In this document: positions 2,279 through 61,460 of the stretch, piece after piece | How the letters are laid out: each line of letters starts with the position of its first letter | Numbering within the stretch: position 1 is the stretch's first letter | DNA from: Adineta ricciae | Lineage: Eukaryota > Rotifera > Eurotatoria > Adinetida > Adinetidae | DNA: 64,000 bases | Direction: 5' to 3' | Assembly (NCBI GenBank): GCA_905250025.1 | Contig: CAJNOJ010000023.1 | Span: 124,001 to 188,000 of the forward strand | Made by a program: the position numbers and the translations under genes | The notes under the pieces: model-generated | What the model saw: the letters and a program-made list of their open reading frames with translations, nothing else | Told to the model about the DNA's origin: nothing | Database searches by the model: none

Positions 2279-2724
2279 ATTGTATACTTCACTGTTTTTT
2301 TTTGTCTAATTTCTTGTGATATGTATTAATTTATAATAAATTATTCTTTGATCCTCAGGGTCGATTAATTAGAAGAGAGAAAAATTTTGTTTGGAGAAAG
2401 AAATATTGCTACGCGTGCACACTATTCTACTCTCATAGACAGGACTGTTGTTCAAAGTGAACTGTCTTCGAGAAATGAACATGGGAAGAATTAGGTCTTA
2501 GTACTGCTCTTTGTTGATATCAATTTCATTTTCTGTATCGTTGATGTGGTGCATCATCTTTGCTAACGAGCAGTGCACTAGTCCTTGCATTGAATTACAA
2601 TCATTCCGATTTTGTGCCATATAGTGGATGCATGTGTCTGACAACTAGTGACATACGATACTGATTGGTTCTAATCATAGAAACCAATGACTCATTGCTA
2701 TTAGTACAGAGTTGTTCTGTCAGT
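2279..2724. other. Short intergenic region
   Basis: 3' end of the small gene (polyadenylation-like ataataaatta near 2335) followed by the 5' region of the F-box gene. Splice-acceptor-like ctaatcatag lies near 2680. No separate gene is seen. Confidence 0.4.
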
Positions 2725-4067
2725 ATGGTATACAACTCAATTCCTGTCAGATCAATGGACGAGTATGTTGCTGATGAAGAGGACAAGGTCGATTGTTCCA
2801 CATCAACGCAATCGCTAAATTTTCTCACTTCAGTATACGATGTGACTCGTGGAATATTTCGTCATCTACCTATTCGGTCAGTGGATTCTTGTTCATTAGT
2901 TTGTCAGTCGTGGGCAGAGATATCACGTTTTACCAAAGCACATCGTCACGCAATTCATGCGTTGACTTACCCGTCAGATCCACTCTCATCAACAACGATA
3001 TGTTCAAATCTCCTACACGATTTCGATCAATTCATAACCTCTTATATAAACAATAGTCTATGGTCCATTCCCACATTAGCTTTAGTTGTATCAACGAATA
3101 TTTTAGCAAGTAAAGGTTTTTATTCGTCTCCTCACTCTCCACCACCGTCAAAGTATACCGAAACAAACAATTTAACACGAATCACTGAACGATTCGATAT
3201 TTCTCAGGCTTTGCTGAGACATTTGAACAAATCATGTAAAATGTTAACGATCGCTGCTGATGGAATCATTGCTTCCACGGAGAATCACCAATCGAATGAA
3301 ATTGAATCAGGTAATTTTTATTTATAGATTATGCTCGTTTGATTCAACTCTTTTTTCTCTGTCAAGATGATGCAATTGGTATTTTATTTCTGCCACATTT
3401 TCCTCCTGATGTTCTCGGCGTCTATCCATTTGAAATACCATCCAATGCGCAAATAGCATCGGATATGTCTCGTACTGACTTACATCGTTTTCTCGGCTCC
3501 GTACCCAACGATGTCTCAATTCGATGTGTTATATTCTTCTTCGTTCAGCGCCAATCCTATGCAGTTGGTTGTATAAAAAAATTACTCGAATATTATCCAT
3601 CCGAAATTGCCATTATCGGTGGTTTTGTCGATAAAATTAGTTACGACGATCGACAAATTCATCCCACACGAACATCATACGACGCATGTGGAATTGTCAT
3701 CACAGGCGATAAAAAACGCTTGCATATTGGAGAGATACTTTTGGAAAATCACATACGTACACGTGAACAAATACGTGATAAATTAATGAAATTGAAAGAT
3801 CTTGAATGCGATCATTCGATCTCATTTGCGATCCAAATTAGTTGTATTGCTCGTGGTTCAAATTACTATAATGATGAACAGAATGTTGAATGTTCAGAAT
3901 TTCGAAAACTCTTTCCGAACACGCCGCTCATCGGTGTGTTTGGCAATGGTGAACTTGGACATGACTATTTACCGAATGAAAAACAGATAATTACCAAGCA
4001 ACAAGCTGGCAAGAATTTATTTCGCGGCTATTCATCCGTGTTTACACTGATCTCTCTACATCTTTGA
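2725..4067 (+). CDS. FBXO22: F-box protein with FIST domain, FBXO22-like
   Basis: Two exons (2725-3310, 3367-4067) with a 56-bp intron give 428 residues; human FBXO22 is 403. An F-box sits near residues 40-70 (IFRHLPIRSVDSCSLVCQSW). The rest matches the FIST-N/FIST-C layout of FBXO22: MLTIAADGII, AIGILFLPHFPPDV, IAIIGGFVD, and a C-terminus with TPLIGVFGNGELG followed by SSVFTLISL. Known role of the family: substrate receptor of an SCF ubiquitin ligase; the FIST region is shared with bacterial sensory proteins. The start is uncertain: ATG at 2725 or 2755, or an upstream exon. BLZF1 follows in the same direction after 118 bp. Confidence 0.8.
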
Positions 4068-20126: not shown

Positions 20127-20944
20127 ACAACATGCTAAAACGTTTTTTTCCTGCTACATATATATATATATATATTTAAATATACGGGTGCTCTTGTTGA
20201 AGACAAACGTTCTTATAGTCATTCCATTGATTGCTTTTGTTTGTTGGTTTGTTTTTTCTCTTCTTCTCTTAGTTTGAAATTCGTTTTTTTCCTTTCACTG
20301 TATATTCCTATTCGCTATTAAACTTGTAATCAACATAATAACTTATAGTTATATATCTGCAGCAGGAAAATTACTCTGACGCTCAGAAGAATTTGTTGTT
20401 GTTGTTGTATGGTATCAAGTGTTTTTCTTTATGACTCGATAATATATTTTTTCGCTTTAATAAGGCTTTGTTTTGCAAAACACTTATTTGTGGAATAGAC
20501 AGATTGAAACGCACGTCTGTCCTATGTGAGAATTGCTACGTCGAGTAGGAGAACAAACGAAAACATGTATGATATCACGAGAGACATACAAACTGTTACT
20601 CACTCGAGAATTTCTGTGAGTCGAGAGTTGATTAAACAAGTCAGATCATGATATTCATACTAAAAGATAACATTCACCTTTGTTTCATTACAATGGAATC
20701 AAGAGGTATTGAATGAAGACAAACTATTTGAACTGAAGCGGACATTACATTGTTATGAATATTCATTTTTGTTGTCTTTGATAAAACTACCAATGACTGA
20801 CCGTACATAGATTGAATAATAGATCAATATCGATCTACGACATTGTTTGTCGAAGACAGTAAATAGACATCTATTGATCTTTTTGAAAGACACAAAAACA
20901 CATTTTCGACATTCATTTCTTATTATTTTAGTTGATAGGAAAGA
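20127..20944. other. Intergenic region with AT microsatellite
   Basis: Starts with a TA dinucleotide run near 20158-20176 in the 3' region of the large gene. The rest has no coding signal. A splice acceptor (attattttag) at about 20922-20931 precedes the next ATG by 13 bp and may receive a 5' leader exon or a trans-spliced leader. Confidence 0.45.
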
Positions 20945-21757
20945 ATGTTCAAGATAAAAGAATTTTTGATGGTCTTGATATCTGTTTCCGCTATTCTTGC
21001 TGATCGAACCATTCGTCGCTTAACGTATAAGCTCGATAGTGATATAACTGGATTTGTCGGCGATAATATCGTTAATTATGATCTGACGCGTATTGATTCC
21101 AGTAGTCCAATGTCAACACTGGAAATTGAAACTGAACAATGGGTGCATGATTGTTGCTTTCTGATCACTTCTCAACCTGTTCTTCGTATTCGTTTGAAAC
21201 AAGACAATAATTATCCGAAGATTACTGCTTATTTGCGTCTTCGTACACCATTATCATCCCTTGTAATGACAGGTACAGGCACACTGACAACTACCAATAC
21301 GATACAATCTGATTCATTGATGATCGAGATCTCGGGTACTTGTAAAGCACAGATGCAAGTAGAAATAGCATCCAAGCTTGATCTGATCATTTCTGGTACA
21401 GGCCAAGTTACAATGACTGGCAATGTGAAAGGTAATGGATACATTCGGCTGACCGGTATCGGTGAGTTCGATGGTCGAGCATGTCCGATGGATACCGTCA
21501 CTGTCGATGTTGCCAGCATCGGGACAGCATACGTCGTGGGCAATGAAGCTGTAGACGTTGCTGTCGGTGGAGTGGGTCTTGTATACTATCATGGGCCATT
21601 AAGAAATCAACGTGTGAATGGTTACGGATCGATCAACACATTGACGAATATCGATGGTAAATTATCACGATCATCGACTATTACAATCTATACACCGGTA
21701 AACTATTTCTTAATACTATTCTATTATTTGGGCTTGACACATTTTCTACTATAGTGA
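20945..21757 (+). CDS. Secreted GIN-domain (DUF2807) beta-helix protein
   Basis: Signal peptide (FLMVLISVSAILA, cleavage near residue 20) followed by repeated short strands with GTGTLTT, ISGTCKAQM, ISGTGQVTMTGNV, LTGIGEFDG, VGGVGLVYYHG and VNGYGSINTL. This is the [ILV]SGxGx repeat and YxG...GxGSI ending of the putative auto-transporter adhesin head GIN domain (DUF2807), a family mainly of Bacteroidetes and other bacteria. Splicing out 21698-21754 (57 bp, GT-AG) gives 251 residues ending ...TIYTP at a TGA in 21755-21757. If that intron is kept, the frame runs on for 18 mostly hydrophobic residues and stops at the acceptor TAG. The role is not known; secretion and an extracellular binding function are inferred. 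Candidate horizontal acquisition. Confidence 0.78.
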
Positions 21758-35952: not shown

Positions 35953-36024
35953 TTCCGACGCCGGGAATCGAACCCGGGCCTCCTGCGTGAAAGGCAGAAA
36001 TCCTAACCACTAGACCACGTCGGA
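35953..36024 (-). tRNA. tRNA-Glu (UUC), copy 1
   Basis: On the minus strand the sequence opens TCCGACGTGGTCTAGTGGTT and carries anticodon TTC in the loop CTTTCAC, A box TGGTCTAGTGG, B box GGTTCGAATCC, and a perfect 7-bp acceptor stem TCCGACG/CGTCGGA, with A as discriminator. A T7 run downstream (aaaaaaa on the plus strand at 35941-35948) is a good RNA polymerase III terminator. No intron. Confidence 0.97.
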
Positions 36025-36118
36025 TGGTGATAGTTACGGCAGTATACAAAACTGCCTCAATGTTTATAGAGCACGCATAGAGAAAAAAAAGAGTTATTGT
36101 GCGTACAAAAAAAGAAAG

Positions 36119-36190
36119 TTCCGACGCCGGGAATCGAACCCGGGCCTCCTGCGTGAAAGGCAGAAATCCTAACCACTAGACCACGTCGGA
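36119..36190 (-). tRNA. tRNA-Glu (UUC), copy 2
   Basis: Identical in sequence to copy 1, with anticodon TTC and intact A and B boxes. It sits on the second unit of a 166-bp tandem duplication together with its flank. A T7 terminator run lies just downstream on the minus strand. Confidence 0.97.
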
Positions 36191-36284
36191 TGGTGATAGT
36201 TACGGCAGTATACAAAACTGTCTCAATGTTTATAGAGCACGCATAGAGAGAAAAAAGAGTTATTGTGCGTACAAAAAAGGAGAG

Positions 36285-36356
36285 TTCCGACGCCGGGAAT
36301 CGAACCCGGGCCTCCTGCGTGAAAGGCAGAAATCCTAACCACTAGACCACGTCGGA
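36285..36356 (-). tRNA. tRNA-Glu (UUC), copy 3
   Basis: Identical to copies 1 and 2 over the tRNA. Its downstream flank is the end of the second 166-bp unit, but its upstream flank differs, so the duplication boundary lies at this gene. A T6 terminator run lies downstream. Confidence 0.97.
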
Positions 36357-36447
36357 CTGTTATAAATAGAAGTCACTAGTATGCTTTTATGCCTTACGCA
36401 ACAGAAAGTGCGCAAAGGCAGACAAATGAAGAGGATCCAAAAAGAGA

Positions 36448-36519
36448 TTCCGACGCCGGGAATCGAACCCGGGCCTCCTGCGTGAAAGGCAGAAATCCTA
36501 ACCACTAGACCACGTCGGA
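36448..36519 (-). tRNA. tRNA-Glu (UUC), copy 4
   Basis: Identical tRNA sequence with unrelated flanks on both sides. A T5 run downstream is a minimal terminator. The outermost copy of the cluster. Confidence 0.97.
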
Positions 36520-48678: not shown

Positions 48679-49636
48679 TTAATAATTGAACAAAATGATA
48701 GCAATCACTATTGAGAGATATTTGATGATGATTGAAATTTGGCTCAGAGCAGACGCTGCAGAGCTGCACAGAACATACGAAGTGCCTGTTTGTGTGAGCA
48801 ATGAGGCGTCTTTCAATAAACGACGAAGTTTATTGGCAGTAAATTTATTATTACACATTGGTTTGTCACACGTGTAAGAAAAAGTTGCTTCACTGTCGTC
48901 ACCCGGACATATCGCTTGAGCCCTTATAGCAACTTTTACGGTTCTATTACAAGAAGTTCGTTCACACGAATGAATAAATCCAGATTTGCCATCACTTTGC
49001 ACTGAGCAACAACCGAGCGAGCAAAAAATTTCTTGATCGTTGTTATTAGAACAAGTCAGATGACTATTATCATCAGAAGCACTTAACAATTCATTTCCAA
49101 GCTCTTGTAAAAGTTTTGTCCGATTTAACTTCATGCCTAGAAGAAAAATGAATATTGCATATCAAATTAATAACAGCCTCCATGATTTGCATTGTTCAGT
49201 GTTGTTCGATAGACTCGGCAGGAGCTTCCATGAAAAGCTTTTGTCTCATCAACTTACTTGCTTCATAGATGTTTTTGGCATCTTCTGAACACGAATCATT
49301 TCTAGGACAGTACAGTGTGATATTACGTTTGATTTCAGTGGAAGCCGGATAAATCCGAATGTCTACCATGTGGTGAATCGTAATCTTATCTTTCGATTTG
49401 TTTGCATAATCACTCCGCTCGTCACCAAACTGAACTTTTACACAATCTGGATTGTAGTCGAAGATTAATTCAGTAGTACATACACCACTTGAATTTAAAT
49501 TCGATTCGTAGTGCGTTGTATTAAGTGACTCCAAAGAGAAACAAGACTGGTTTAGTATAGGCGAACGACAAACCAAAGACGAATTCGTCATAAGCAATCG
49601 ACCAAAGATGACGGAAAGAATTGCAAGCCAAAACAT
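48679..49636 (-). CDS. Secreted Cys-rich protein, Ly6/uPAR-like, probable GPI anchor
   Basis: Two exons: 49636-49258 and 49136-48679. The join at a consensus donor (gcaagtaagt) restores one frame. A signal peptide (MFWLAILSVIFGRLLM) starts at ATG 49636. The body has about fifteen cysteines and many N-glycosylation sequons (NSS, NTT, NRT, NDS). The pattern C-SLGCC...C-ERTSCN...C-DKPMCN, ending in CxxxxCN, recalls three-finger Ly6/uPAR domains. The C-terminal hydrophobic tail (IIIKYLSIVIAIILFNY) would suit a GPI signal or membrane anchor. Without splicing the first exon runs on and stops near 49196. Function unknown. Confidence 0.65.
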
Positions 49637-50863
49637 TGTTTCACCAAAAATTTGTAAAACTCCCAAAACTGTTTTATTTTAATTATGTACCTGCCTATAT
49701 ATATACGTACGACATACTAAGATTAAGAAACAGATCAGATGGCATTATTTTTCCCTTGAATGTATACAGATTTGCATCGGAAATATGAGATGCAGTATTT
49801 TTGCCATGATATTTTTATTGATTGGAATGAATTCACAGATTTATACAGTATTAGACTCAGCCAGGTATTTAATGGCAAGAAGAGAACGATTACTCATCTC
49901 CACTCTTACTAATATTAATACAAGTGTGTTTCTGCTTTGAATAAAGTATTAGCGAGATTTCGGTTTCATTTTATGTATCTAAAGTCTGTCAATACTGTCT
50001 AAAATCAGAGACAAACTGGTACGTGATCGACTTTCATCGAAGACATGACAGACAATTAGGTGCACTTTACATACAAAGAAAGTTCTTGAAGGTTTCTTCG
50101 ATGATTTCGAGCTATAGTTAGTCTTTTATGCGATAGAAGTAGATATTGAAACACTACAGTTCCATTACATTAATATCGAAAAAACTTGCACTTTGCACCG
50201 ATTTCTTTCAGTGCACCTGTTTACTTATCAATTTCCCAGACAGAAACCGTTCTGCGTCGCAACACCTGATGCATCATATTACCTCGATCTGTTTATAAAT
50301 GACTTTATTGTTTTATTGCATACCGGTTCCACTATTTCATGTTTTCTTTTCTTGTTGCACTTGTAAATAAATCTTGGAATAACAGTGTTTTACCGATGAA
50401 AGAAAAGAGGAACTTATGCGAATAAAATGAGATTTTCCATAGAAAATGTTCAACTCATTCGTGACTCATTATGCACGTCATTGAAGAATACTTCCCTCTT
50501 ATTACATTCGATGTTACAAGAAATAAGTCGTTCTCAGTTGCTATGGATCACAAAGTATAGCGAAAAACACTCGCTTTTGTGAGGACTAATAAACGAAGAA
50601 AAAGTATAACAATGTCGATTCATTATTGAACAAAAACATTACGCACCTTATATGATTTAAACGTTAGAAGAAGAAGAGGAAAATTTTGTTTAGTGTGCTG
50701 TGTCTCAAGTTAGAAAAGACAAAGGTTTTGACTAGACCAGTTAGACAATTAGCTTTCTCATTCTCCTGATTGTTTTTTCTGCTTCACTACGTTACAGTTT
50801 ATGAACATATTTGCATAATCCACGCAATTATCTATTCGAAATCAACTTCTGTTTCAGATCAAA
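49637..50863. other. Intergenic region upstream of the MscL pair
   Basis: About 1.2 kb without a coding frame, between the leftward Ly6-like gene and the rightward MscL genes. A polypyrimidine acceptor (tctgtttcag, ending 50859) lies just before the first MscL ATG, so a 5' leader exon or trans-spliced leader probably joins there. Confidence 0.45.
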
Positions 50864-51383
50864 ATGCCACGTTGTTGCGGTCGTTGTTTCAATCTTTGCA
50901 AAGAATTTAAAGCGTACGTATCGAGAATATCCATGGAAATTGCAAACTAATGTTTTGTTTGATGATAGATTTGCCCTACGAGGCAATATGTTCGATTTAG
51001 CATTAGGTATTATTATTGGTACCGCATTCTCCGGTGTCGTTCAATCACTCGTCGATGATATCATCACTCCTCCACTTGGTCTCCTCATCGGCGGTGTTGA
51101 TTTAGTTAACTTAACTGCTTCGATTCCGAATTTTGTCTATCAAAATCAACCGCCAGTTCTCATTCGCTACGGAAGATTCATCCAAAAAGTCATCAACTTA
51201 TTACTTGTCGCTTTGGCATTGTTCGTCGTTGTAAAACTAATTAACAAATTGCATCGGCTGGCGATGAAAGCCAAAGCAGATGTGGAAAAGACAGCCGTTA
51301 AAGAGATCAGCGAAGAAGTCAAAATTCTCCAACAAATCCGCGATTTATTATCACTAAAAACAGTTCATATCCATCAACAATAG
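50864..51383 (+). CDS. mscL: Large-conductance mechanosensitive channel, copy 1 (bacterial type)
   Basis: Two exons (50864-50913, 50969-51383), 154 residues. After a Cys-rich head (MPRCCGRCFNLC) the protein follows bacterial MscL from end to end: KEFKAFALRGN amphipathic helix, TM1 FDLALGIIIGTAFSGVVQSL, DDIITPPLGLLIGGVDL, periplasmic-type loop, PPVLIRYGRFIQ, TM2 VINLLLVALALFVVVKLINK, and the C-terminal bundle EVKILQQIRDLLSLK. The gate Leu and Gly of E. coli L19 and G22 are kept; V23 is Ile. Known role: homopentameric, tension-gated pore that releases solutes on hypo-osmotic shock. MscL is found in bacteria, archaea and some fungi, not normally in animals. The 55-bp intron falls in codon KEFK-A, phase 2. 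Membrane location in the host is unknown. Confidence 0.95.
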
Positions 51384-51849
51384 GATCGAAGATTAAATAT
51401 TTGATTTTGTTGAAAGGAAAAAAAAGACAATAGTTTGCACAAGTTTGATGTCAGTGATCGAGGTGATAATTATGTTCTTTTTCGAAATTTTTTTAACATT
51501 GTATCTTTATCGTACCATGTTGAAGCTCACAATTCGTTTTCGATTTTGCCGATCGTTCTTCTCTCGGTTCACAAAATAAGGCATCAGATGCCGAAAGAAA
51601 ATCATTATTCAATTCATTTCTTTTTTGACCCAATAGAAATAAAATCACCGTTCTGGAATTTTGAACGAATGCGTTTTTTGTTAATGAGAAATAGAAACTG
51701 GATTGCAGATCAAATGACAACCCCCAATGTAAAATGAGTATTTACAAATACTACTTTTGCATTTCTATATTGAGAGTCTCATTCATTTTGTCAATCTTTG
51801 ATTCCCAGTAGTCAAATACGAATAAGAAGACTTCTATGCTATTCTTCAG
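51384..51849. other. Spacer between the two MscL genes
   Basis: About 465 bp holding the 3' end of copy 1 and the 5' region of copy 2. The open frame at 51435-51737 has no protein-like pattern; it lies where no coding is expected. Confidence 0.5.
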
Positions 51850-52379
51850 ATGAAGATTCAGAAACTGTGCTTTTTCGGTAGATCGTTTTGCCGAGAATTT
51901 AAATCGTATGTTGCATTTTTCTGTTGAGTAGTATATCTAGTGATCTGTTTTCGAATAGATTTGCTCTACAAGGTAACGTATTTGATTTGGCTATTGGCAT
52001 CATTATTGGTACTGCCTTTACTAATGTTGTCAAGTCGCTTGTCGAAGATATTATCACTCCCCCATTCGGGTTCCTCTTGGGCGGAGTTGATTTCGCTAAT
52101 CTAACAATTAAAATGCGCAATTTTATCTATACTGACCAACCACCCGTGGTAATACGCTATGGAAAATTTATTCAAGAGATTCTCTATTTATTAATCATGG
52201 CGTTGGTGCTGTTCTTTATTGTAAAAGGCATCAATAAGATTCATGATCTCACAAAGAAACGGTTAATGGAGGAGGGAAGTAAAAAAGCGAAAGAATTAAG
52301 TGACGAAGTGAAAGTTTTAACCGAAATACGGGATTTATTGGCAAAGCAAAATCCACAGATTGAAGAAATCATGTTATGA
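51850..52379 (+). CDS. mscL: Large-conductance mechanosensitive channel, copy 2 (bacterial type)
   Basis: Two exons (51850-51905, 51959-52379), 158 residues. The layout equals copy 1: Cys-bearing head (MKIQKLCFFGRSFC), REFKSFALQGN, TM1 FDLAIGIIIGTAFTNVVKSL, EDIITPPFGFLLGGVDF, PPVVIRYGKFIQ, TM2 ILYLLIMALVLFFIVKGINK, and helical tail EVKVLTEIRDLLAKQN, very like the E. coli end EVLLTEIRDLLKEQN. The 53-bp intron lies at the same codon and phase as in copy 1. The two proteins are clearly diverged along their length, so the duplication is not recent. Both frames look intact, which suggests both are under selection. Confidence 0.95.
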
Positions 52380-52493
52380 AGAAAAAAACAGTTATAATTT
52401 GTATTTATTCAATAAAAAAGCCTCAATGGCGCTCGTAGTGTGTAACTAGGATCAGTGAATTCATTCGCTTTTGATTTTTCTTGTAATACACAC

Positions 52494-53264
52494 ATGTCGA
52501 ATCGATCTATGGACGAAGAAATCGAACGAATTTTCAATGGGAAAATAGAAATTACAAAAGAAAAACTAAAACAAACTTTAGAAGAACTCCTTAACAAGTA
52601 CAATAGTCTCAGGCGGAGTCACAGTGCCATACATCGTGCTGCTCCGTTGCATAACGAAATGAAACAAGAACCAAATCAACTTTTAGAATCTGAGCTGGAC
52701 AAAATCACTTCGAATACAATCTCTAAGGAGCACGCAAAATCGATCTTATCAGCATTGAGAACCCAGATGAAAGATCAATGGCATGCCCACATCGACAGTT
52801 ACATTCAAACATCTATCAAGGATGAAATGAAGAAGCTCAATGTTCATGAAGTCAATGTCAGTCAAGCACATGATCTACTCCGAACCATTTGTCATCGAAT
52901 GAAGCCAAGTCATGATGGTACACCTGCAGTACTAGATGACAGTGTTAAAAATGATTTTTTGAATGAATTCAAGTCCAAACATGGCTCGAACAAGATCAGT
53001 GCTGAGGAAGTTTGGGAAATAGTGAAGGATTTCGATAAGAAGCAGCACGATAAGATGGGGTGCTGTGAAAAAAATTCCCAATGGGACAGCCAACGCGAGA
53101 AAAAATGGGATGAAATCTTTCATGAACAATATAAAGAATTATTCGGTGAGAAAAACAATTCAAAGGTTAATGAACAGCAATTGGAAGAATTAGCCAAGAG
53201 GTTAAAAGAGAAATTTCAACAAGAATGTCCACAACACCCCGGCAAACGTTTTTGTCAGCACTGA
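52494..53264 (+). CDS. Hydrophilic helical protein of unknown function
   Basis: Single exon, 256 residues from ATG 52494 (the frame is open upstream to about 52455 without ATG). Strongly charged and predicted mostly helical: MDEEIERIFNGKIEITKEKL, ISKEHAKSILSALRTQMKDQ, WDEIFHEQYKELFGEKNNSK. The C-terminus has CPQHPGKRFCQH and the middle GCCEKN, which could bind metal but match no named motif. No signal peptide or membrane segment. It follows the second MscL gene by 114 bp in the same direction. I do not recognise it. Confidence 0.65.
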   Translation: MSNRSMDEEIERIFNGKIEITKEKLKQTLEELLNKYNSLRRSHSAIHRAAPLHNEMKQEPNQLLESELDKITSNTISKEHAKSILSALRTQMKDQWHAHIDSYIQTSIKDEMKKLNVHEVNVSQAHDLLRTICHRMKPSHDGTPAVLDDSVKNDFLNEFKSKHGSNKISAEEVWEIVKDFDKKQHDKMGCCEKNSQWDSQREKKWDEIFHEQYKELFGEKNNSKVNEQQLEELAKRLKEKFQQECPQHPGKRFCQH

Positions 53265-53601: not shown

Positions 53602-54857
53602 TTATCCCATTCCAAGTGGTGATGCAGGTTGGGCTTGTTGAGAGACGATATTATTGCCTGATGTTCCTTGTTGAGAGTTGCTAGCATTTGCGGTAACCGG
53701 TGTTTCGAGATTGAGTAATAATTGCGATAACCATTTTTTTGTTGATTGATCTTCTTTGAGAATAGCATCCTAGAATGAGAAAAGCGTCTAGAAATGAATA
53801 GAAATAATGAACAGCTTCATTTACAAATGTATGATCTTTGAGACAATCTGGAAGACATGAACGGAGCGCTTCACGTGCACGAGCATTATCCGATAAACGT
53901 AAATAACAGCGGATGATATGCTTCAGTAATCTTCCACTTGCTTCTTTTTGCTAATCGAAAAAGCAAACAAAGTATGAAAAAAGAAAATCTGTCGCGAAGA
54001 TTTACTTGTTGTAAGACCATTCGTCCTAAGACCATGGCCACGTGCGAAAAGCGATCGAATGTTTGACAGATGTAATTCAGACCGCAATCATCGGCGAGAA
54101 TTTTTTGTAAGATGAATGTCGCCACTGTTTTGGATAATTCACTACCGGATTGCATAATACGTAATGAGAGAGGAATGATTTCCGTTGTTAATAAGAAATT
54201 GATCACTTCTGTTTCGTCAGTTTTAACCAGTGCACCGATGACACCTAAGGATGTTAAACGAAGATATTCGAATGGTCGTGTCGATGATTTGGTGTTTAAG
54301 AATGGATACAGAAAAAGTGGAATATTCGCTTGAATAAAAAGTGAACGAGTTTCAGGATGAGATGCTATACATTGAAGTAATGCTAGAGCATTGCACACGC
54401 GATTGGATTGTTGAGCTGTTAATGTTGGAGGTGTTATATATGGGTAGACCGAACTAAGAAGAATAGGATTATAAGCGATTGTTTAAATCGTCGAAATTGA
54501 TATTACTTACATCACTTCGTGTAAGAGAACAGCAACAGATCCAAATGAATGCCAAAGTAAAACAGCTAAGTCGACAACTTTTTCTCTCTTACGACTTAAT
54601 TCCATGAGAGCATTTTCACGTGTTGTTGATGACAACAATTCTGTTATCCAAGAAGCAATACGTTCAGAAGATACAGGCGTGTCATTTGCTGGATTATTTG
54701 CGCCTGATGTTTGTTGTTGACCTGCATTTGCACTCGAATTGTTTGATGTTTGACCACTGGCACCAGCGGATGGTGGACCACTGCCGCCTCCGCTACCATT
54801 CGATGTCACAATTGGATTCGGAGACGGCGTTGATGATGTCGACGATGCCATGTTCAT
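53602..54857 (-). CDS. CNOT9: CCR4-NOT transcription complex subunit 9 (RCD1/CAF40)
   Basis: Four exons (54857-54511, 54453-54006, 53950-53825, 53769-53602) give 362 residues; human CNOT9 is 299, the extra being a Ser/Gly/Asn-rich N-terminal head of about 65. The armadillo-repeat core is highly conserved: [95 protein letters not shown] and [20 protein letters not shown]. Known role: CCR4-NOT subunit that docks mRNA-binding proteins and TNRC6/GW182 for deadenylation. Start ATG 54857 or the next Met two codons on. The Gly/Gln-rich C-terminal tail is not conserved. Confidence 0.96.
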
Positions 54858-55225
54858 GTTTAAGAATATACAAAATGTTTCAATGGAACTATTGTTTACT
54901 TGTTGCTTTCTTCGTCTGAATCTTGATTTGTTAACTTGACTGATTGTTTTTCTAACTAATAACAACTACTGACCAACTCTGATGAACCAATGGAATACGC
55001 TGCCACGAGCGACATCTGTTTGGAAATTTTTATGATGCATTGATGAGTTCAATCTTATAGAAAGCAGTGACCAGCCGCTTACTCAGAAGTGGATCTCAAG
55101 ATCTATTCCGCATGAATTTTAATTCCTTATTGAATTATACAATCTGACACGAATAAATATTCACAAAAAACGATAAGATGAAAAGAATTAAATGGACAAG
55201 CGCATTGAAAGGTTATTAGTTTCGA
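54858..55225. other. Spacer between CNOT9 and the EF-hand gene
   Basis: About 370 bp on the 5' side of CNOT9. An open frame continues CNOT9 upstream to 54965 without an ATG of its own. No other coding signal. Confidence 0.5.
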
Positions 55226-59236: not shown

Positions 59237-59750
59237 TGATTATTGTTTAGAAGAATTGGCTTGATTGCCTATGCAAATCTAGAAAAAAAACAATTTCCAA
59301 TTAAATACCAAGAACATCAGATCTTTGGCTTTTTTTTTATTGTTTTTTGTTGTTGTCGGTTTTTTTCTCTTCTCCTACCGTCTTATTATTCTGTAAACGA
59401 TATCCATCTTGAAAGATAGAATCGTTTACCACTACAATGAATTTCTTCATAACAACAAATAAAACCTTTAATGAATCCGATGCTTTTTCAGAATAAAGCA
59501 TTTACTTGTTCAATATCCTACGAAATTTTTCCTTTAATTTCCCTAATGATATGCGACAAATGTAGACATCCTAGAGGGCGCTCGTTACTTAGTAGAAATC
59601 TCTCACTTATTACGCATTACTGATTTGTGTACACTGGATTTCGAGCGACTGGCTGCGTGTCGATCTATCTATGCTTTGTTTTCTGAAATAAGAAAAGAAC
59701 GAGTCGAGTGAAACTCTTGTCGTGCATCATTTCTACTTTGCAGATTAAAT
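59237..59750. other. Bidirectional upstream region
   Basis: About 510 bp between ATP synthase c (leftward) and the dehydrogenase-like gene (rightward). An acceptor (tactttgcag, ending 59743) lies just before the latter's ATG, again suggesting a 5' leader exon or trans-splicing. No coding frame. Confidence 0.5.
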
Positions 59751-61197
59751 ATGTTCAGTTTTGGGATTTTACTCATTCTTTTGCCATGTATAGCGATGGG
59801 AAAACACTTACAGGTCTTTCCTACCAAACTCTTTATACCTAAACCAATTCGTATATTTGTCGCTGATCTTCCAGCTCCGTATCATACAGATTCCATCCAA
59901 AAGCCACCAATTGTCGTTTCGATACCTGAAAATGCCACATTCTATCTTCCGGATTCCAAATTTCGTGTATCTGTCTATTGCGACCATATGGAATCTCCAC
60001 GGAAAATGATCTATACACCAAAAGGTGATATACTCGTCACAGAGATGCGTGGTAATCAAATATTAATTCTTACTCACAATGGCACTCGAAAATCAGTCTT
60101 CGCTGATCAGTCAAATGGCATTTCACAAGCATTCGGCATGATTTTCGTGAAAGTATACGCACGGCGTTTGCTTACATGACACGAACTGATCTTTTGCTTC
60201 TTTGTCTTAAGGGTTGGTTTTATGTTGCTAATGCAGGTAGTCTTCGTCGATATCCATACAGATTCAACGATAAACGATTGTATGGAACTGGAGAGATTTT
60301 AATGACATATGAAAGTTCATACCATTGGACTCGCAATTTAATCGTTTCACCAAATCAAGATCATTTATATATTACAATTGGTTCGGGTAGTAATGTCGAT
60401 ATTGAATATCCGCCTCGAGCATCAATACAAATAACAAACTTAGATGGATCCGATAATCAAACACTTGCATGGGGTTTACGTAATCCTGTTGGTATTGATT
60501 TTCATCCAAAGACAGCCGATTTATATGTAACTGTTCAAGAACGTGACCATCTCGGTGATGATCTTGTCCCGGATTATTTTACTCGAGTACAAAAAGATGA
60601 TTTTTACGGATGGCCATTCGGTACAGTGCTGCGAGCTGTTTGCCAGCCGTTTGATGACTTTCTTTTCTTCTAGCGTATTTATCTTCAAAAAATATCGATC
60701 CACATCGCCGATTTTTAAACGGTTCAAGTGAACGGCCAGATTTAGTCGCTCGTACACGTACACCCGATGTTCTTTTTCAAGCTCACTCATCCGTACTTGA
60801 TATGAAATTCTACCGTGGGAAACAGTTCCCAAAATACTATCAAAATGGTGCATTTGCTGCTTTTCATGGCTCGTGGAATCGAGATATAGGTGTTGGATTC
60901 AACCTAGTTTTTATTCCATTCGGAAACGATAATCGTCCAAAAGGACACTATGAAGAATTTCTCCGAGGTTTTATGGTTGATTCCAAAGGTCCAAAAACAT
61001 TCGGCAGACCAGTTGGCTTGTTGGAAATGCAAGATGGAAGTTTGTTATTTAGCGAAGACGGACATGGTCGTCTATATCGGATTGAATATTTGAAAGACGA
61101 AACAAAGTTTTTGGCAATGACATCCAATGGAGCAACAAGCTTGTTTATCAATAAGATTTTATTATTAGTTTTACTTTTATGGAAATTGTTTTTCTAA
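59751..61197 (+). CDS. Secreted glucose/sorbosone dehydrogenase-like beta-propeller
   Basis: Three exons (59751-60152, 60212-60620, 60674-61197) give 444 residues. A signal peptide (FGILLILLPCIAMG) is followed by a six-bladed propeller of the PQQ-dependent glucose/L-sorbosone dehydrogenase family: SPRKMIYTPKGDILVTEMRG, RNLIVSPNQDHLYITIGSGS, TLAWGLRNPVGIDFHPKTAD, FAAFHGSWNR and GRPVGLLEMQDGSLLFSEDG with HGRLYRI. LRNPxGxxxHP and the final blade SLLFSEDGHGRLYRI are typical of the family. A C-terminal hydrophobic tail (FINKILLLVLLLWKLFF) would serve as a GPI signal or membrane anchor. Substrate and PQQ use are not shown; the closest relatives I recall are bacterial and fungal proteins, so horizontal origin is a fair guess. 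Confidence 0.85.
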
Positions 61198-61460
61198 GAT
61201 GAATGTGGGGTGACGACTACAACATAGCCTTGATGAATGAATAATGTTTTCTTCATTTACAAGTCAGAATCATGTCTGACCTTGAATTGTCACAACATAG
61301 ATGAGAATGAAAACGATCTCAATAATGTCAATTCATGGCATCAATTAGTTCGATGTGTGCATATATATATATACACATATCTCAATATTTGAATAGTACA
61401 GGGTGATGACGGAATCATCACATCTATCGATTGAGTAAGTCNCACCACGTATTATTACAG
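61198..61460. other. Short gap with an ambiguous base
   Basis: Contains a TA run (tatatatatata near 61362) and a single n at 61442. The n lies in what would be a 26-bp intron (donor gtaagtcn, acceptor attattacag), shorter than any other intron here, so the local sequence may be wrong or incomplete. Confidence 0.5.

Follow-up and report, generated by a model that had tools for sequence, protein, structure and literature searches.

The locus described here raises the question of how two genes for MscL, a channel of bacterial type, came to lie in what looks like animal DNA, and whether they could serve as osmotic channels there. MscL is a pentamer with a wide, unselective pore that opens when membrane tension rises, and to our knowledge animals do not have a tension-gated pore of this class. 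In the openly licensed literature, as represented by titles, the beginnings of abstracts and some passages, we came across no description of an animal MscL, which is not proof of absence, and in the openly licensed papers that mention both MscL and bdelloids, MscL does not occur in the available main text. MscS-like channels are described as absent from metazoans in the accessible parts of two sources (PMC9367656, PMC8282336). According to the same sources, MscS-like channels of fungi, plants and protists represent a bacterial-type form of osmotic release in eukaryotes, as the two genes described here would, but they belong to a family that is structurally distinct from MscL.

If functional, the locus would provide an uncomplicated, testable example of a bacterial solution to osmotic shock being borrowed by an animal, and through the tandem pair one could study the adaptation of a single-gene channel to a new cell type and its acquisition of an intron. 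The explanation that we consider probable, taken as a whole, is that a bacterial mscL was taken up, gained an intron, was duplicated in tandem and was kept in both copies for osmotic release. Positions refer to the window, that is, the whole stretch of 64,000 nucleotides that was analysed; the two genes are called mscL-A and mscL-B, or A and B for short.

Gene structure and splicing

The preliminary description of this DNA reported two full-length MscL genes lying head to tail, each cut at the same place by a short GT-AG intron, and both claims hold. The exons listed in Table 1 give spliced products of 154 (A) and 158 (B) amino acids, and the two introns were confirmed at matching positions, where they split the codon for Ala after KEFK in A and that for Ser after REFK in B. 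When GT-AG pairs leaving introns of at least 25 bp were enumerated over the ranges considered, a single solution kept the frame of mscL-A open; for mscL-B nine pairs did so, and of these, 51906-51958 alone brings REFK-S directly next to FALQGN. Read without splicing, the exon-1 frame runs into a TAA at 50948 after 28 codons in mscL-A and into a TGA at 51925 after 25 codons in mscL-B, and the exon-2 frame of either gene has no ATG between the upstream stop and FAL(R/Q)GN. Because of these stops and the lack of an upstream ATG, full-length MscL can be made from A or B only if the intron is removed, and we infer from the reading frames that both introns are spliced from the RNA.

The introns of A and B show no likeness in sequence beyond chance, with 363 of 1000 shuffles scoring as well; introns that differ in sequence and agree in position and phase are expected after a divergence of this extent. 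Searched by tblastn for a third mscL copy or a remnant, the window yielded nothing outside the two genes with an E value below 0.11.

Table 1. Positions in the window of the two mscL genes, their candidate signals and the neighbouring CNOT9 gene
Feature	Position	Strand	Remarks
Pyrimidine-rich sequence resembling a 3' splice acceptor, mscL-A	50846..50857	+	ends 6 nt before ATG
mscL-A exon 1	50864..50913	+	N-terminal extension containing 4 Cys (MPRCCGRCFNLC), followed by KEFK, where MscL conservation begins
mscL-A intron	50914..50968	+	55 bp, GT-AG, phase 2
mscL-A exon 2	50969..51383	+	predicted to cover TM1, the extracellular/luminal loop, TM2 and the C-terminal helix; ends in stop TAG
Possible poly(A) signal, mscL-A	51638..51643	+	AATAAA; consensus match only
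Pyrimidine-rich acceptor-like sequence, mscL-B	51838..51849	+	ends directly at ATG (0 nt)
mscL-B exon 1	51850..51905	+	N-terminal extension containing 2 Cys, followed by REFK
mscL-B intron	51906..51958	+	53 bp, GT-AG, phase 2, position as in mscL-A
mscL-B exon 2	51959..52379	+	open frame after removal of 51906-51958
Possible poly(A) signal, mscL-B	52411..52416	+	AATAAA; consensus match only
Part of host CNOT9/Rcd1	53889..54965	-	two ORFs; gene continues below 53889
CNOT9 introns	54454-54510, 53951-54005	-	57 bp and 55 bp; picked by eye, checked by translation

Family membership and predicted structure

Profile searches place both predicted proteins in the MscL family. The Pfam model PF01741 matches A with E 5.5e-38 (130.5 bits) and B with E 4.5e-39 (134 bits), against a cut-off of 27.4. 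Eight NCBIfam MscL equivalog models were matched, two of them above and six below their cut-offs for both copies: NF001843 gives 142.3 bits for A and 146.1 for B against a cut-off of 142, and TIGR00220 gives 119.9 and 120.8 bits against 71. All eight distinct sequences returned by a PDB search with a profile of the pair are named MscL, including two that are fused to riboflavin synthase.

For column counts, 157 bacterial loci were reduced to 123 by dropping the 34 that were at least 85% identical to a kept one or had fewer than 95 residues. Twenty-five columns are conserved in at least 90% of these 123 sequences; A retains 23 of them and B 24, and the TM1 Gly/Ala pattern within this conserved core is present in both. 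The one missed column that the copies have in common is Phe in all 123 bacterial rows. Bacterial MscL (PF01741, NF001843, TIGR00220; PDB 2oar, 3hzq, 4y7k and 28oa) has two transmembrane helices, a loop and a C-terminal helix, an arrangement that A and B probably have as well; it shares with them conserved residues of TM1 and TM2, and A and B pass curated cut-offs for the family. Unlike bacterial MscL, A and B stand in tandem in eukaryotic DNA, each with a spliceosomal intron; they carry a Cys-bearing N-terminal extension, and they have Leu in TM2 at the invariant Phe position just mentioned.

A structure model, made for exon 2 of mscL-A only from 24 sequences and of moderate confidence (mean pLDDT 73.9, pTM 0.41), predicts a beta hairpin between two long helices, with a further helix at the C-terminus. 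Foldseek gave six matches to this model, of which the first five were MscL chains (2oar, 4y7k), with E 0.0026-0.015 and TM 0.36-0.40; none of the six reaches E 0.001, so the model backs membership of the family only loosely.

N-terminal extensions and gene starts

Before the conserved Phe there are 17 residues in A, four of them Cys, and 19 in B, two of them Cys. The median length of this part among the 123 bacterial sequences is 9 residues, and 18 of them have at least 16, although some long bacterial N-termini may be artefacts, given that the start codons of these rows were set automatically. Any Cys before the conserved Phe occurs in 5 of the 123, and two or more occur in 2. N-terminal Cys can serve lipidation, and the Cys-bearing N-terminus of A and B could be lipidated, which might tune where or how easily the channel opens.

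Both ATGs are preceded by a pyrimidine-rich sequence resembling a splice acceptor (Table 1). Over the whole window, such a sequence is found within 8 nt of an ATG in 68 of 1346 cases on the forward strand and in 73 of 1317 on the reverse strand, and it was not seen at three other starts that we examined (the gene at 52494, CNOT9 and GCV_H). The sites before A and B, which were noticed after the fact, may be acceptors for trans-splicing or acceptors in the 5′ UTR. The first of these readings draws on bdelloid biology, since more than half of bdelloid transcripts receive a 23-nt leader by trans-splicing, according to the accessible part of one source (PMC1925144).

Possible function

Homology makes an osmotic safety valve the most likely role of A and B. 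A, B or a mixture of both would form a tension-gated pentamer that lets solutes out and prevents lysis when water flows in, and in an animal that rehydrates fast, such a pentamer could work as a valve for osmotic release, located either in the plasma membrane or in an internal compartment. A role of the pair in desiccation is a further guess, as the preliminary description acknowledged. More specifically, one may picture an animal that has long had a working MscL, with two specialised copies forming a pressure valve for rehydration and the Cys extension serving as a new membrane anchor that adapts the channel to animal cells, a picture that we offer tentatively and believe somewhat less than we doubt.

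It is unlikely, in our view, that the genes are real and have been put to a use other than osmotic release, for instance in organelles or sensory cells. The Cys residues in the exon-1 extension (four and two before the conserved Phe, where any Cys is found in 5 of 123 bacterial sequences) and the Leu that both copies have at the TM2 column that is Phe in all bacterial rows would suit such a change of use, but both copies keep the conserved core residues to the extent given above, among them the Gly/Ala pattern of TM1.

Phylogeny and possible donors

A tree was built from A, B and the 110 best-scoring of the 123 bacterial rows (112 rows, 137 columns). The sampling behind it is biased, as the scan of genome contigs was seeded by two peptide patterns and 80 of 281 relatives were kept, and the loci from genome searches are best matches only. 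In agreement with the bacterial ancestry put forward in the preliminary description, A and B form one clade (100/99) nested among the bacterial rows, the only ones compared. This clade, the common intron position and the common Leu in TM2 argue for one origin of the two copies. The stem of the clade measures 0.51, and it joins the pair L081 and L134 at a weakly supported fork (99/43) in a tree whose bootstrap had not settled. A is 45-49% identical to the 12 bacterial rows listed as scoring best against it, and B is 44-51% identical to its own 12.

Three alternative placements, chosen after the tree was inspected, were compared by AU tests, and none was rejected: with L081 (p 0.80), with L106/L108/L110 (p 0.69) and with five Omnitrophota rows (p 0.61). 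The likelihoods of the corresponding constrained trees were higher than that of the free tree by 28, 13 and 13, respectively, which means that the free search missed the best tree. In the four phyla to which G001, G007, G003 and G002 belong, 252 of 345, 168 of 349, 39 of 198 and 17 of 35 genomes, respectively, contain a match, and the top scores are 142, 133, 138 and 142 bits. Bit scores overlap between phyla, and similarity of this kind does not single out a donor phylum; with three placements unrejected and the phylum scores overlapping, the donor is not pinned to one lineage.

Candidate vehicles were also considered and set aside. Twenty-three stretches of viral contigs matched a seed pattern, and none of them encoded a relative. 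Thirteen phage records had a match, the best 10 of the 13 being 39-46% identical, and 116 plasmid records had one, the best among the matches listed being those of E. coli and Klebsiella (46-49%). A single plasmid record falls in the 60-80% identity band; it is not among the matches listed and, given that the ranking is by coverage times identity, it covers less than about three quarters of the query.

A transfer would not in itself be surprising in bdelloids, because foreign genes are common there: candidates amount to 11.7-14.5% of genes in four species, according to the accessible part of PMC5916493. Horizontally acquired bdelloid genes, as described in the available portions of three sources (PMC5916493, PMC3499245, PMC11258130), resemble A and B in being bacterial-type, linked to animal-type genes and host-like in composition, and in having short introns. 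Unlike those genes, A and B encode a membrane tension channel; in the text available for the same sources, the string "mechanosens" is absent from PMC5916493 and PMC11258130, and "channel" is absent from PMC3499245 and PMC11258130.

Order of events

The intron position lies within sequence shared with bacteria, the E of KEFK being present in 121 and the F in all of the 123 bacterial rows. Transfer, one intron gain and then duplication would be the simplest order of events. It had been proposed earlier as the order that must have been followed, and it stands as the simplest history; the "must" does not, because an intron-bearing donor would also fit, as would gene conversion between A and B. 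Under the simplest order, an ancestor of this eukaryote, which was most likely an animal, would have taken up a bacterial mscL, and the transferred gene would have gained one short spliceosomal intron in the conserved N-terminal helix, plus the N-terminal extension. It would then have been duplicated in tandem, and the copies would have diverged to 57% identity under purifying selection.

If the donor was instead another eukaryote, such as a fungus or protist that already carried the intron, there would have been no intron gain in the animal lineage. Fungi carry MscL homologues, which speaks for such a donor, but the fungal MscL has a different motif, and the profile scores of A and B both pass the cut-off of a bacterial MscL model, while in the tree, where all other rows are bacterial, the pair nests among them. 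We rate a eukaryotic donor as rather improbable, a little more so than a change of use, even though bdelloid foreign genes, mostly bacterial, also come from fungi and plants, as stated in the accessible part of PMC5916493.

Selection on both copies

The preliminary description also held that both copies work. Intact frames, the conserved core and signs of selection support this claim, while channel function itself is deduced from sequence only. A and B differ at 33%, 20% and 57% of codon positions 1, 2 and 3, respectively, and the NG86 estimates are dN 0.33 and dS 2.23, the latter saturated, so that the dN/dS ratio is indicative only. The differences fall at columns that are also variable in bacteria (mean entropy 2.27 versus 1.24, p 9e-10). 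This pattern shows purifying selection in the divergence of A and B, and both copies appear to have been retained.

That one or both copies are decaying pseudogenes is very improbable, given the open frames, the conserved residues and the bias of the A/B differences towards third positions; in a neutral simulation in which one copy drifted to 57% identity, just 12 of 1000 runs were free of stop codons.

Genomic context

The neighbourhood had been described as eukaryotic and animal-like, and this view was borne out: CNOT9 sits about 1.5 kb downstream of mscL-B, with one ORF between them, and has introns of similar size (Table 1). Against chains of CCR4-NOT subunit 9, which we take to be human, it reaches 270 bits, and against CAF40, presumably from yeast, 205. 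Elsewhere in the window there are matches to the ubiquitin hydrolase, bZIP, BRCT and EF-hand families, as well as a zinc-transporter domain match just under the cut-off. GC3 is 0.37 and 0.38 for A and B and runs from 0.25 to 0.39 in 11 further ORFs of the window. The codon usage of the mscL pair correlates with that of six host ORFs at 0.84, with 0.63, 0.88 and 0.91 for three other sets; drawn from these sets, the correlation says only that the pair is not foreign-looking.

The host is most likely an animal, and a bdelloid is plausible, since the GC content of the window (36.2%) and the introns of 53-57 bp fit published values. According to the accessible part of PMC5916493, the GC content is 35.6% in Adineta ricciae, 30.8% in A. 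vaga and 32-33% in two Rotaria, and most bdelloid introns measure 30-100 bp. Bacterial contamination or an assembly chimera, for which we found no support, has a negligible chance of being the explanation, as both mscL genes need splicing and resemble other ORFs of the window in composition, the best among the full-length bacterial matches found reach about 50% identity, and the eukaryotic gene with similar introns lies so close by.

Several other features of the window were observed. The ORF that follows mscL-B on the forward strand (52494-53264, +) encodes 256 aa from its ATG with a GC3 of 0.385, similar to that of the mscL pair; it is rich in charged residues by eye and has no Pfam match. 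On the other side, two Cys-containing ORFs with no Pfam match (48679-49678, -) are divergent from mscL-A, which may have its upstream region in common with them. Another foreign-gene candidate is the ORF at 20939-21751 (+), which matches DUF2807 (head GIN domain) with E 1.4e-19 and has a GC3 of 0.35, like the rest; the DUF2807 family is mainly bacterial. A gene at 59750-61200 (+), consisting of two ORFs with matches to TrAA12-like and glucose/sorbosone dehydrogenase families, both below the Pfam cut-offs, and with no NCBIfam match, was possibly acquired from bacteria or fungi. At 2665-4064 (+), two ORFs with marginal matches lie in succession, the first to the F-box and the second to the FIST C domain, and we take the two together to resemble a gene of the FBXO22 type. 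Finally, four tandem tRNA-Glu (TTC) genes with equal Rfam scores lie about 165 bp apart at 35953-36519 (-).
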